A DNA stretch of 40,111 bases. It comes from Faecalicatena contorta. Its GTDB lineage: Bacteria > Bacillota > Clostridia > Lachnospirales > Lachnospiraceae. The position numbers and the translations under genes are program-made. Within the stretch, counting starts at the first letter, position 1. Every line of letters starts with the position of its first letter. Below the pieces are notes generated by a model. It ran no database searches, had not been told where the DNA came from, and saw only the letters and a list, made by a program, of their open reading frames with translations. The DNA is taken from contig NZ_JAFBIZ010000016.1 in NCBI RefSeq assembly GCF_021531995.1, forward strand, positions 1-40,111, in the 5' to 3' direction. This document shows, piece after piece, positions 25,795 to 29,338 of the stretch.

Positions 25795-25811
25795 AAAAAA
25801 GAAGGGGTATA

Positions 25812-27338
25812 ATGGAAACAAACAGGGTCTATATAGCGATTGATTTGAAATCTTTTTATGCGTCTGTGGAATGTGTAGAGCGAGGGCGTAATCCGTTGAC
25901 AACCCATCTTGTAGTGGCGGATAAGAGCCGCACAGAGAAAACGATCTGCCTTGCAGTATCCCCTTCTTTGAAAGCCTACGGGATTCCGGGAAGGGCAAGG
26001 CTGTTTGAAGTTGTACAGAAGGTAAAGGAGATCAATGCAAGACGAAGGTGCGGGATTTCAGGTGGAGTGTTTCAGGGAGTGTCGGATGATGTGCAGGAGT
26101 TGGAAACGTCACCGGCTCTTGCAGTGGATTATATTGTGGCTCCTCCGCAGATGGCACTTTATATGACATACAGTGCGCGTATTTACGATATTTATCTGAA
26201 ATATGTGGCGCCGGAGGATATTCATGTATATTCCATTGATGAGGTGTTCATGGATGTGACGAATTATCTGGGGACTTATCGGATGTCAGCCAGGGAGCTT
26301 GTGCAGAGGATCATACATGATATACTGGCGTCAACAGGGATTACAGCAACGGCAGGGATTGGAACGAATCTGTATCTGAGCAAGGTTGCCATGGATATTG
26401 TGGCGAAGCGTATTGAACCGGATCAGAATGGAGTGAGGATTGCGGAGCTGGATGAGATGTCATACAGGGAGCTTTTGTGGTCGCACAGGCCGCTTACGGA
26501 TTTCTGGAGAGTGGGGAAGGGATACGCAAAGAAGCTGGAAGAGCGTGGCCTGTATACGATGGGAGATGTAGCAAGATGTTCCATTGGCAGGCCATCGGAA
26601 TATTATAATGAAGATCTGTTATATCAGACCTTTGGTGTGAATGCGGAACTGTTGATTGATCATGCCTGGGGATGGGAACCCTGTACCATTGCGGACGTCA
26701 AGGCATACCAGCCGGAGAATAACAGTGTGGGATCCGGGCAGGTTCTGCAGCGGCCTTACGATTATGAGAAAGCTCGATTAATCGTGCGAGAGATGACAGA
26801 TCTGCTGGTGCTGGATCTGGTAGACAGGCGTCTGGTAACGGATCAGATTGTGTTGACAGTCGGATATGATATTGAGAATTTGAATACGGAAAAGAAGAAA
26901 AAAGCGTACCGGGGGAAGGTGAAGACGGATCATTACGGAAGAACGGTACCGAAGCATGCACATGGAACAGTGAATCTGGACAGTCATACTTCATCTACAA
27001 GAGTGATCATGGATGCAGTCATACCTCTGTATGAGAGAATTGTCGACAGGAAACTTCTGGTGAGAAGAATATATCTTACGGCGAATCATGTGATAGATGA
27101 AGCTCTTGCGGGTGAAAAAGAAACCTATGAGCAGTTGAATCTTTTTACAGATTATATGGGACAGCGGGAAAAAAGAGCGGAAGAGGAGAAAGCGCTTGAG
27201 AAAGAAAGGAAGATGCAGGAAACGGTGCTTTATATAAAAAAGCGATTCGGAAAGAATGCGATTCTGAAGGGAATGAACCTAGAAGAAGGCGCCATGACAA
27301 TTGAAAGAAATAACCAGATCGGCGGTCATAAAGCGTGA
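25812..27338 (+). CDS. Y-family translesion DNA polymerase (UmuC/UvrX type)
   Basis: A 508-residue Y-family polymerase that copies past damaged bases. Active-site acids are seen in AIDLKSFYASVE and YSIDEVFMDVT; the helix-hairpin-helix region is near DFWRVGKGYAKKLEERG; a clamp-binding motif QLNLF lies near residues 441-445. The order with a YolD-like gene next matches UvrX/YqjW-type SOS units in Firmicutes. ATG 25812 is chosen because GAAGGGG lies upstream and the longer open frame crosses the promoter and LexA boxes. It is probably cotranscribed with the YolD gene 18 bases on. Confidence 0.95.
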   Translation: METNRVYIAIDLKSFYASVECVERGRNPLTTHLVVADKSRTEKTICLAVSPSLKAYGIPGRARLFEVVQKVKEINARRRCGISGGVFQGVSDDVQELETSPALAVDYIVAPPQMALYMTYSARIYDIYLKYVAPEDIHVYSIDEVFMDVTNYLGTYRMSARELVQRIIHDILASTGITATAGIGTNLYLSKVAMDIVAKRIEPDQNGVRIAELDEMSYRELLWSHRPLTDFWRVGKGYAKKLEERGLYTMGDVARCSIGRPSEYYNEDLLYQTFGVNAELLIDHAWGWEPCTIADVKAYQPENNSVGSGQVLQRPYDYEKARLIVREMTDLLVLDLVDRRLVTDQIVLTVGYDIENLNTEKKKKAYRGKVKTDHYGRTVPKHAHGTVNLDSHTSSTRVIMDAVIPLYERIVDRKLLVRRIYLTANHVIDEALAGEKETYEQLNLFTDYMGQREKRAEEEKALEKERKMQETVLYIKKRFGKNAILKGMNLEEGAMTIERNNQIGGHKA

Positions 27339-27356: not shown

Positions 27357-27776
27357 ATGCGCAGCGAAGAAAATGATTACAGGGATATTATTCATCAGAT
27401 CCATCATATATCGGATAGGCATCCGCAGATGCAGGTGGCTGCAAGAGCGGCACAGTTTGCACCGTTTCAGGCTTTGACAGGATATGGGGATGCAATACGG
27501 GAGACGGCCAGAGAGACGGCCAGCCGTGTAGATCTGGATGAATATGAAAAAGAACGGATTAATCAGAAGCTTTTACGGTTAAAAGGATGGATTCGGGAGC
27601 ACCCGGCAATTACAGTGACTTATTTTGTGCCGGATCAGAAAAAAGACGGAGGTGTGTATGTACGTGTTACAGGAAGAGTACAGAGGATGAAAGAATATGA
27701 ACATATTCTTGTGATGGAAGATGGTACCCGGATAACAATCGAGGAGATCCTGGAGATAGAGATGGGTGACGCCTGA
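27357..27776 (+). CDS. YolD-like protein
   Basis: A 139-residue YolD-like protein. The diagnostic segment RAAQFAPFQALTGYGDAI is followed by a helix and then a beta-rich C-terminal half (VTYFVPD, VRVTGRVQRM). Members commonly sit next to Y-family polymerases and are thought to modulate them, though the mechanism is not established. AGGAG and AAAGGAT lie before ATG 27357. A weak GACGC/GCGTC hairpin (27768-27786) spans its stop codon before the convergent gene. Confidence 0.88.
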   Translation: MRSEENDYRDIIHQIHHISDRHPQMQVAARAAQFAPFQALTGYGDAIRETARETASRVDLDEYEKERINQKLLRLKGWIREHPAITVTYFVPDQKKDGGVYVRVTGRVQRMKEYEHILVMEDGTRITIEEILEIEMGDA

Positions 27777-27792: not shown

Positions 27793-28098
27793 TTATCCTT
27801 TTTTCATTCGGATCCCCTCGGTTTCGAAATAGCTGAGCCAGGGATATTCCATGTAATTTACATGGATCTGACCGCATACCTCTATCCCTTCCGGCTTGTA
27901 ATATACCTTTCCGAGGATGCTGTTATCGAAGATATACCCCTGTTCTGTTAATTCCTGTTGACTTTTATTAGTAAAATCTACTAATATCTCCAGACGAGGA
28001 GGGGCGCATCAGCTGGATATTTCTTCAATATTGAGTACAATATCTTTAAAATTCAGACGCTTCATATAGTCAATCGCTTTGTCGTTTAACTCAACCAT
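27793..28098 (-). CDS. probable selenoprotein with in-frame TGA (CC/Se-motif type)
   Basis: A minus-strand frame of 102 codons from ATG 28098 to TAA 27793 has a single in-frame TGA at codon 30 (28009-28011), directly followed by a Cys codon. Read as selenocysteine (U), the local sequence is EISS-U-CAPPRLEILVDF, and the frame stays protein-like to the end (GYIFDNSILGKVYYKPEG, NYMEYPWLSYF). I recall a small NCBI family named CC/Se motif (seleno)protein with a Cys-Cys or Sec-Cys pair before a hydrophobic strand; membership is inferred. AAGGGG lies 10 bases before the start. A hairpin at a SECIS-like distance follows the TGA. It is divergent from mobA-mobB. The alternative is a nonsense-mutated pseudogene. 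Confidence 0.72.
27966..27986 (-). promoter_or_regulatory. candidate bacterial SECIS hairpin
   Basis: On the minus strand TATTAGTA and TACTAATA form an 8-base stem around the loop GATTT. The loop starts 30 bases after the in-frame TGA and its first base is G. Both points meet the usual bacterial SECIS criteria as I recall them (loop 16-37 bases from UGA, G in the first two loop bases). Confidence 0.5.
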
Positions 28099-28187
28099 AG
28101 TCTGTATTCCCCTTTCTGGTATCTATCATGGCACAGAGGAGGCGAAAAAACAAGGTTTTTTGAAATGGGCTGCTTTTATTTGTCTGG

Positions 28188-28238: not shown

Positions 28239-28805
28239 ATGGACGGATTAATATTGGCGGGCGGAAAGAGCACGCGTATGGGAGGAAAGCATAAAGGTTT
28301 TCTTCAGATGGAAGAGGAGACTTTTATGGATCGATTAACAAGAGAAATGAAGCCGCAGGCAGATCGACTGTGGATTTCGTATGGAAGGGATATCCATGCG
28401 AATTATGAGGAGTGTCGGGTGGTTATGGATGAATATCCGGGATGTGGTCCCATTGCCGGGATCCATGCGGGACTTTGTGCTTGTGAATCGGAGCTTTTGA
28501 TGGTGGCAGCGTGCGATATGCCGTTTTTAAAATCGGAATTGTATGTGCTGCTTGAAAAACATATAGCGGACCATGATGGAGCAGTGCCGCTGTGTAAAGG
28601 CAGAATACACCCACTGGCGGCAATCTACAGAAAACGTATCCTGACAGTTCTGGAAGAGCAGCTTGAGTCAGGAAACTATCGGTTGAGAGATGCGCTTGCA
28701 AAAATGGATATCGTGTATGTAGACGTATCCGGAAAGCCGGAGTATGAACAGATGATTCGAAATATCAATACAATAGAAGAATATCGGAAAATACGAATCC
28801 GGTGA
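28239..28805 (+). CDS. mobA: molybdenum cofactor guanylyltransferase-like protein
   Basis: MobA joins GMP to molybdopterin to form the dinucleotide cofactor used by oxidoreductases. The 188-residue protein has the nucleotide-binding signature LAGGKSTRMGGKHKGF at the N-terminus and the Asp motif AACDMPFL. ATG 28239 is chosen because GAGGTG lies before it and the protein then starts at the family's usual place. Relatives that use CTP or serve other Mo enzymes look alike, so GTP specificity is inferred. Its stop lies 14 bases before mobB. Confidence 0.88.
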   Translation: MDGLILAGGKSTRMGGKHKGFLQMEEETFMDRLTREMKPQADRLWISYGRDIHANYEECRVVMDEYPGCGPIAGIHAGLCACESELLMVAACDMPFLKSELYVLLEKHIADHDGAVPLCKGRIHPLAAIYRKRILTVLEEQLESGNYRLRDALAKMDIVYVDVSGKPEYEQMIRNINTIEEYRKIRIR

Positions 28806-28819
28806 AATCAGGAGAAGAG

Positions 28820-29338
28820 ATGGAAATAGAAAGAAAAAAACAGATGATTGCTGCGGTATGTGGTGTAAAAAATTCCGGAAAAACGACACTTCTTACCGGG
28901 CTGGTAAAAAATCTTACAGCCAGAGGTCTGAAAACGGCGGTGATCAAGCATGATGGTCATGATTTTGAATGTGATATAAAAGGTACGGACAGTTTCCAAA
29001 TGAAAGAAGCAGGGGCATACGGAACGGCTGTGTTTTCTGCACATCGGATTTTTGTGCATAAAACAGGAACCGGGGAAAAGCTGAAAGAGCTGATTCGTAT
29101 GTTTCCGGAGGCAGATGTGATTCTGATTGAGGGAATGAAAGAAAGCGAGCACTCCAAGATTGAAGTGATCAGAAAAGAAATATCAAAAATGCCGGTATCG
29201 AATCCAAAGGGGCGTTTTCTGATCGTGACGGACTGGGAAAGTGAGATATATGATGAACCGGTAATGAGATTTGATCAGATAGAAGAGATTGCAGACCGAT
29301 TGTTAGATCAATTACAGAATAGAAAAAAGAATTATTAG
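28820..29338 (+). CDS. mobB: molybdopterin-guanine dinucleotide biosynthesis protein MobB
   Basis: A 172-residue P-loop GTPase that assists MobA in cofactor dinucleotide formation. The Walker A motif is GVKNSGKTTLL, followed by AVIKHDGHDFECDIKGTDS, typical of MobB, and ILIEGMKES. AGGAG lies 5 bases before ATG 28820; an in-frame GTG at 28802 overlaps the mobA stop but has no site. No Mo-enzyme or moa/moe gene lies in the window. Confidence 0.9.
   Translation: MEIERKKQMIAAVCGVKNSGKTTLLTGLVKNLTARGLKTAVIKHDGHDFECDIKGTDSFQMKEAGAYGTAVFSAHRIFVHKTGTGEKLKELIRMFPEADVILIEGMKESEHSKIEVIRKEISKMPVSNPKGRFLIVTDWESEIYDEPVMRFDQIEEIADRLLDQLQNRKKNY

Follow-up and report, generated by a model that had tools for sequence, protein, structure and literature searches.

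A probable Sec-Cys selenoprotein with a predicted IscA-like fold, from a sister branch of the CC/Se family in Faecalicatena contorta

Three described groups of proteins are closest to the one reported here. The CC/Se family is known from a hypothetical protein with one Sec, predicted in Moorella thermoacetica (PMC13188914), and is represented by the model NF041239 (Moor_selen_rel, “CC/Se motif family (seleno)protein”), which has a curated cut-off of 40 bits; a related HesB-like selenoprotein, from Methanococcus maripaludis, lacks a clear function (PMC11097638); and the IscA-type carriers have three conserved Cys, two of them in a C-terminal Cys-x-Cys (PMC6006206). For the RNA element that goes with a Sec codon, the bSECIS model gives a loop of 3-9 nt, a stem of 4-16 bp, a G in the first two loop positions, a loop 16-37 nt from the UGA, and a free energy of -7.5 kcal/mol or lower (PMC13188914).

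In a stretch of 40,111 nucleotides from Faecalicatena contorta (the window), we identified a gene whose closest known systems are these. Translation of the minus-strand frame at 28098-27793 gives 101 codons with a sole in-frame TGA at codon 30, TGC next to it, and TAA as the stop, bearing out the earlier note, which had pointed to a 101-codon frame with a single TGA at 28009-28011 beside a Cys codon. By the standard code the frame would end after 29 residues. Its product reads MVELNDKAIDYMKRLNFKDIVLNIEEISS-U-C-APPRLEILVDF...MKKG*, in full MVELNDKAIDYMKRLNFKDIVLNIEEISSUCAPPRLEILVDFTNKSQQELTEQGYIFDNSILGKVYYKPEGIEVCGQIHVNYMEYPWLSYFETEGIRMKKG, and contains, besides Sec30, only Cys31 and Cys75. On both strands of the window, it is the sole frame with TGA-TGY that has at least 20 ATG-started codons upstream of the TGA and at least 40 open codons downstream. 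The elements of the gene are as follows:

27793-28098, minus strand: predicted Sec-encoding gene for a 101-residue selenoprotein with a predicted HesB/IscA-like fold, CC/Se sister branch (translation, 28 distinct homologues, AlphaFold2 model)
28009-28011, minus strand: TGA codon 30, very probably read as selenocysteine (TGA in all 28 distinct homologues, a sense codon in none)
28006-28008, minus strand: TGC for Cys31, vicinal partner of Sec30 (Cys, as TGC or TGT, in all 28)
28109-28116, minus strand: putative ribosome-binding site GAAAGGGG, upstream of the gene (from the sequence)

A promoter scan upstream of the gene returned no strong minus-strand promoter.

The TGA is conserved wherever the branch was found. 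We searched 397 whole genomes of the same family with stops read through, and obtained 15 matches at E 1e-16 or better (window gene included), each with exactly one TGA, and three weak matches likewise with one TGA; a TGA-containing match occurs in only 17 of the 397 genomes. When 84,980 species genomes were scanned, 21 loci emerged, including ones from Dorea, Faecalicatena, Claveliimonas, Extibacter, Merdimonas, Mordavella, and Mogibacterium kristiansenii. The merged set holds 28 distinct sequences (27 in the aligned region); the earlier note had proposed to look among such homologues for Cys or TGA at codon 30, and what is found there is TGA followed by a Cys codon (TGC or TGT) in 28 of 28, with no sense codon at position 30 in any. 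The homologues are 47-59% identical to the window protein at the protein level, with an identity of about 50% before as well as after the Sec, and the invariant residues flank the Sec on both sides, including Y11, M12, S29, C31, A32, P34, E37, S60, G63, P86, W87, F91, and G95; conservation does not end at the TGA. In the wider family, Cys does occur at the Sec site (CC in 12 NF041239 matches; for example, L062 has CC where L063 has UC), but it occurs in no member of the window branch. No homologue was found on a plasmid. Two weak matches without a stop (L033 and L034) seemed unrelated on inspection. One genome has a second, truncated copy of the gene, at L035:1501-1722 (G323:C1:1833744-1833965); it is homologous up to about residue 69 and continues in unrelated sequence thereafter.

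Profile searches do not place the window protein in a named family. The Pfam search gave no match, PF01521 included, and the NCBIfam search no meaningful one, with nothing to NF041239 at E <= 1, whose cut-off the protein does not reach, and nothing to TIGR01911; nor does NF041239 match anything in the host genome. Since every profile test failed, the protein should not be filed under NF041239, TIGR01911, or PF01521. The lead of the earlier note toward the CC/Se family holds for the branch, through profile-profile comparison, and fails as a direct assignment of the protein itself. Among 18 aligned relatives, four match NF041239 weakly (best E 1.2e-5), and hhalign aligns the window branch with the NF041239 set at 92% probability and E 6e-7 over 92 columns, with Sec30 opposite the first Cys of the pair. 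The NF041239 set is in turn linked to the TIGR01911 HesB-like set at 95% probability (profile-profile), four of its 16 matches also match PF01521, and the HesB-like set matches IscA with a solved structure. When the window branch was compared directly with the HesB-like selenoproteins, the result was negative (1.6%, hhalign), so that relation rests on the predicted fold and the intermediate family. Judged from sequence comparison, the window protein is a Sec-only sister branch of the CC/Se family, not an above-cut-off member of NF041239. It resembles NF041239 in its length of about 95 residues, in the adjacent Cys/Sec pair after strand 2, and in overall profile, but differs in its motif S-U-C-A-P-P-x-x-E, in a longer middle part, and in that all members found contain Sec; it resembles the TIGR01911 proteins in predicted fold type and in the Sec in the loop after strand 2, but has S-U-C-A-P-P where they have G-U-x-G-P, and lacks the C-terminal Cys tail. 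A PDB sequence search also suggested DUF4465 (best E 5.5e-5), which we rejected as chance because in a cleaner alignment the match fell into two stretches of about 10 bits each, with i-E 5.9-11.

The fold of the protein is probably IscA-like (HesB/IscA), as indicated by the top matches of its AlphaFold2 model and by the profile chain through the NF041239 and HesB-like sets. The model has a mean pLDDT of 93.6, and the top nine Foldseek matches are all IscA, SufA, or HesB-type proteins (best probability 1.00); VIA gives a Z of 8.1 to IscA over 85 residues, a structural match that is moderate in degree (VIA Z near 8, TM near 0.56). In the model secondary structure, Sec30-Cys31 falls between the strands 19-29 and 32-43, that is, in the loop joining strands 2 and 3, at most one residue from the position of the first Cys ligand of the IscA type; alignments differ by one residue on which of the two, Sec30 or Cys31, is the counterpart of that Cys. 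The predicted fold and a reactive residue near the first Cys ligand are shared with IscA/SufA/ErpA (PF01521), but no Pfam model matches the window protein, which lacks the C-terminal Cys-x-Cys and has a vicinal Sec-Cys pair.

It could be argued from this fold that the product is a Sec-containing iron-sulphur or iron carrier working like IscA, and perhaps the only A-type carrier of the organism, since a canonical PF01521 protein was not found in the host genome or in 20 relatives (it was found in 9 of 14 control genomes). We consider this unlikely. The missing C-terminal Cys-x-Cys removes cluster ligands, which makes a canonical iron-sulphur cluster carrier improbable; the presence of a TGA-containing match in only 17 of the 397 family genomes argues against a general replacement for the A-type carrier; and a mutant of the related archaeal HesB-like selenoprotein was unimpaired in nitrogen fixation (PMC11097638).

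We also checked the RNA downstream of the TGA, where the earlier note had described an 8-base hairpin with the loop GATTT, 30 bases past the TGA. That hairpin is present, and a second one, absent from the earlier note, lies between it and the TGA:

27966-27986, minus strand: apical SECIS-type hairpin, 8 bp, loop GATTT (folding, covariation, loop G in 28 of 28)
27988-28001, minus strand: proximal hairpin CTCC-N6-GGAG, 7 nt past the TGA, with no sequence variation (all 4 pairs constant in 27 sequences; codons CCT and GAG fixed)

The stem of the apical hairpin starts 22 nt, and its loop 30 nt, downstream of the TGA. Across both hairpins 94.9% of cells in the homologue alignment are paired, and 16 cells carry changes on both sides (compensatory); none of 500 shuffles matched the observed values for pairing percentage, compensatory cell count, or covariation score, and when the partner was slid by 1-3 columns the paired cells went down to 29-51%. 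The covariation lies in the apical hairpin (27986-27966); the proximal one, all four of whose pairs are invariant, is uninformative by this measure, but two of its codons are fixed though synonyms are free (Pro33 is CCT in 26 of 26, and Glu37 is GAG in 27 of 27). Against a synonymous-codon-shuffle null over 27 homologues, the observed energy of -15.3 kcal/mol compares with a mean of -9.1 (z = -12, 0 of 300), and for the window sequence alone 0.65% of such shuffles are equally stable. The element is similar to the bSECIS model in being a stem-loop directly downstream with a loop of five, with G within the first two loop positions (28 of 28 sequences), and 30 nt from the UGA, and the apical hairpin agrees with the rules for loop, stem, loop G, and distance; it differs in the sequence-invariant hairpin in front and in that the window's own copy is weak alone (-5.3 kcal/mol, against -11.3 for both hairpins and a homologue mean of -7.5 for the apical one) and by itself does not clearly reach the energy limit of the model. 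Rfam had no match at the site.

The host has the machinery that the gene would need. One contig of its genome carries in a row yedF (a TIGR03527 match), selD, selA (TIGR00474, 621 bits, cut-off 268), selB (TIGR00475, 373 bits, cut-off 242), and a selenium-metabolism LysR regulator (NF040786, 433 bits, cut-off 250). The selD gene (L036:3338-4378, G000:C296) is itself a Sec gene, with TAGUAAKI and an in-frame TGA, and so serves as an internal control for the use of Sec by this organism; in a simple listing of ORFs its start is put too far downstream, at the GTG at L036:3500. Of selC only the 3′ half was found, at the end of contig 43, and a complete selC was not seen in the assembly; since this contig breaks off just 3′ of the anticodon loop, an initial search for tRNA-Sec returned other tRNAs only, and the remnant was located with the selC of a congener as query. 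The half gene and its downstream neighbour match the selC locus of this genus-mate, where ARAGORN calls tRNA-SeC. Looking for selA, selB, selC, and selD in the genome, a check that the earlier note had named, thus gives selA, selB, and selD intact and selC in part.

The machinery also co-occurs with the gene. selB is present in 15 of the 17 TGA-carrying genomes and in 47 of the 380 other family genomes (Fisher p = 1.8e-11), and tRNA-Sec was found above the cut-off in 14 of 16 genomes with a homologue. Two carriers are the exceptions for selB: G231 (82% complete) gave no selA, selB, or selC match, and the near-complete G104 (L030, L037) has tRNA-Sec and a one-TGA relative of the family, but neither a selA match nor, above the limit used, a selB. 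Sequence comparison by itself does not identify the residue that is inserted, and the TGA might be read as Trp, Cys, or Arg, through near-cognate decoding or an altered code, rather than as Sec. We regard this as very unlikely: TGA and Cys replace each other at this position in the wider family, as Sec and Cys do in other such pairs, selB is found in the carriers, the RNA element agrees with SECIS rules, and the host's selD is also a Sec gene.

The neighbourhood of the gene was considered next to the suggestion, made in the earlier note, that it is linked to selenium-dependent molybdenum enzymes through the genes from which it diverges. That it is divergent from mobA-mobB is correct, both genes being confirmed by profile:

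28239-28805, plus strand: mobA (TIGR02665 match), divergent neighbour, probably no component of the system, absent beside homologues
28802-29338, plus strand: mobB (TIGR00176 above cut-off), neighbour, absent beside homologues

This adjacency, in one genome, would be the ground for a selenoprotein that serves molybdenum-cofactor enzymes, which is most improbable, since neither mobA nor mobB was matched in 38 homologue loci (some of them duplicates, with flanks of 1.5-4 kb where contigs allow), and neighbours recur only in close relatives. The host's formate-dehydrogenase-like gene has no in-frame stop, and formate dehydrogenase was accordingly rejected as a selenium partner; the molybdenum link is not supported. 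On the other side of the gene, the window encodes at 27357-27776 (plus strand) a 139-residue protein with no NCBIfam match, which converges on the selenoprotein gene and closely follows a DNA polymerase IV-like gene (25806-27338).

That the locus is a pseudogene or two short frames, with the TGA as an ordinary stop, as the standard code would have it after 29 residues, is very unlikely: 28 distinct homologues share this one TGA at an identical codon position, their frames are intact and conserved beyond it, the RNA that follows is structured, and Sec machinery is present and co-occurs. The proposal of a missed selenoprotein gene is thus supported, none of the contrary outcomes that had been named beforehand having arisen.

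We conclude from this comparative evidence that the TGA at codon 30 is very probably decoded as Sec and that the gene encodes a small selenoprotein. In the mechanism that we propose, SelB-bound Sec-tRNA would decode codon 30 (UGA) under the direction of the hairpin that lies 22-43 nt downstream, and the 101-residue product would fold like the A-type iron-sulphur carriers IscA, SufA, and HesB. The adjacent selenol and thiol would then act jointly, cycling between the reduced pair and a strained selenenylsulphide, or might alternatively be used for gripping a soft metal or chalcogen. No functional partner or neighbour pointing to the function was found; with somewhat less than even confidence, we infer that Sec30-Cys31 may be a vicinal redox or soft-ligand site.

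The same pair of positions varies across the wider family. Among the matches that were read out, 12 have Cys-Cys, nine Sec-Cys, two Cys-Sec (L078 and L079, match from base 1501, with PCUTG and TCUAG), and nine a lone Sec. Nine further CC/Se family matches, in eight Clostridia-class genomes, have adjacent Sec-Sec, written as a conserved tandem TGA-TGA on the matched strand: L136, L137, L139, L140, L141, L142, L143, and L144 share GUU-x-x-[FY]-x-x-PS, and L138 has TUUFK. Two of the five Sec-Sec members tested pass the NF041239 cut-off of 40 (42.1 and 41.7 bits). Eight of the nine have in common a SECIS-like hairpin about 20 nt past the second TGA, which is beyond a synonymous-codon null (z = -5, 0 of 1000) for a stretch chosen after the folds had been seen; over a longer stretch of 54 nt in all nine, the fold is not beyond the null (z = -1.3). 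The table of a 2026 selenoprotein review has no adjacent Sec-Sec motif (PMC13188914), and our literature search, with most subscription papers outside its scope, found no report of one in prokaryotes. A tentative reading, which we hold to be possible and rather less than probable, is that these small proteins of IscA fold, the window gene's product among them, form a superfamily organised around a single vicinal chalcogen pair, with all four pairings used by evolution at the same two positions. If true, the CC/UC/CU/UU set would provide a natural series representing a new type of vicinal selenol/thiol site, one that would perhaps carry or sense selenium or a soft metal.

The gene is invisible to callers that treat TGA as a stop only, and the curated model of the nearest family also misses the window protein, so that selenoprotein counts in gut Lachnospiraceae are probably too low. 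The predicted fold places a family so far described only as hypothetical beside the iron-sulphur carriers. This is a little-studied family with a selenium/sulphur swap at two neighbouring positions, and with its series of Cys-Cys, Sec-Cys, Cys-Sec, and Sec-Sec one can test why a cell pays for selenium at one or both of them.
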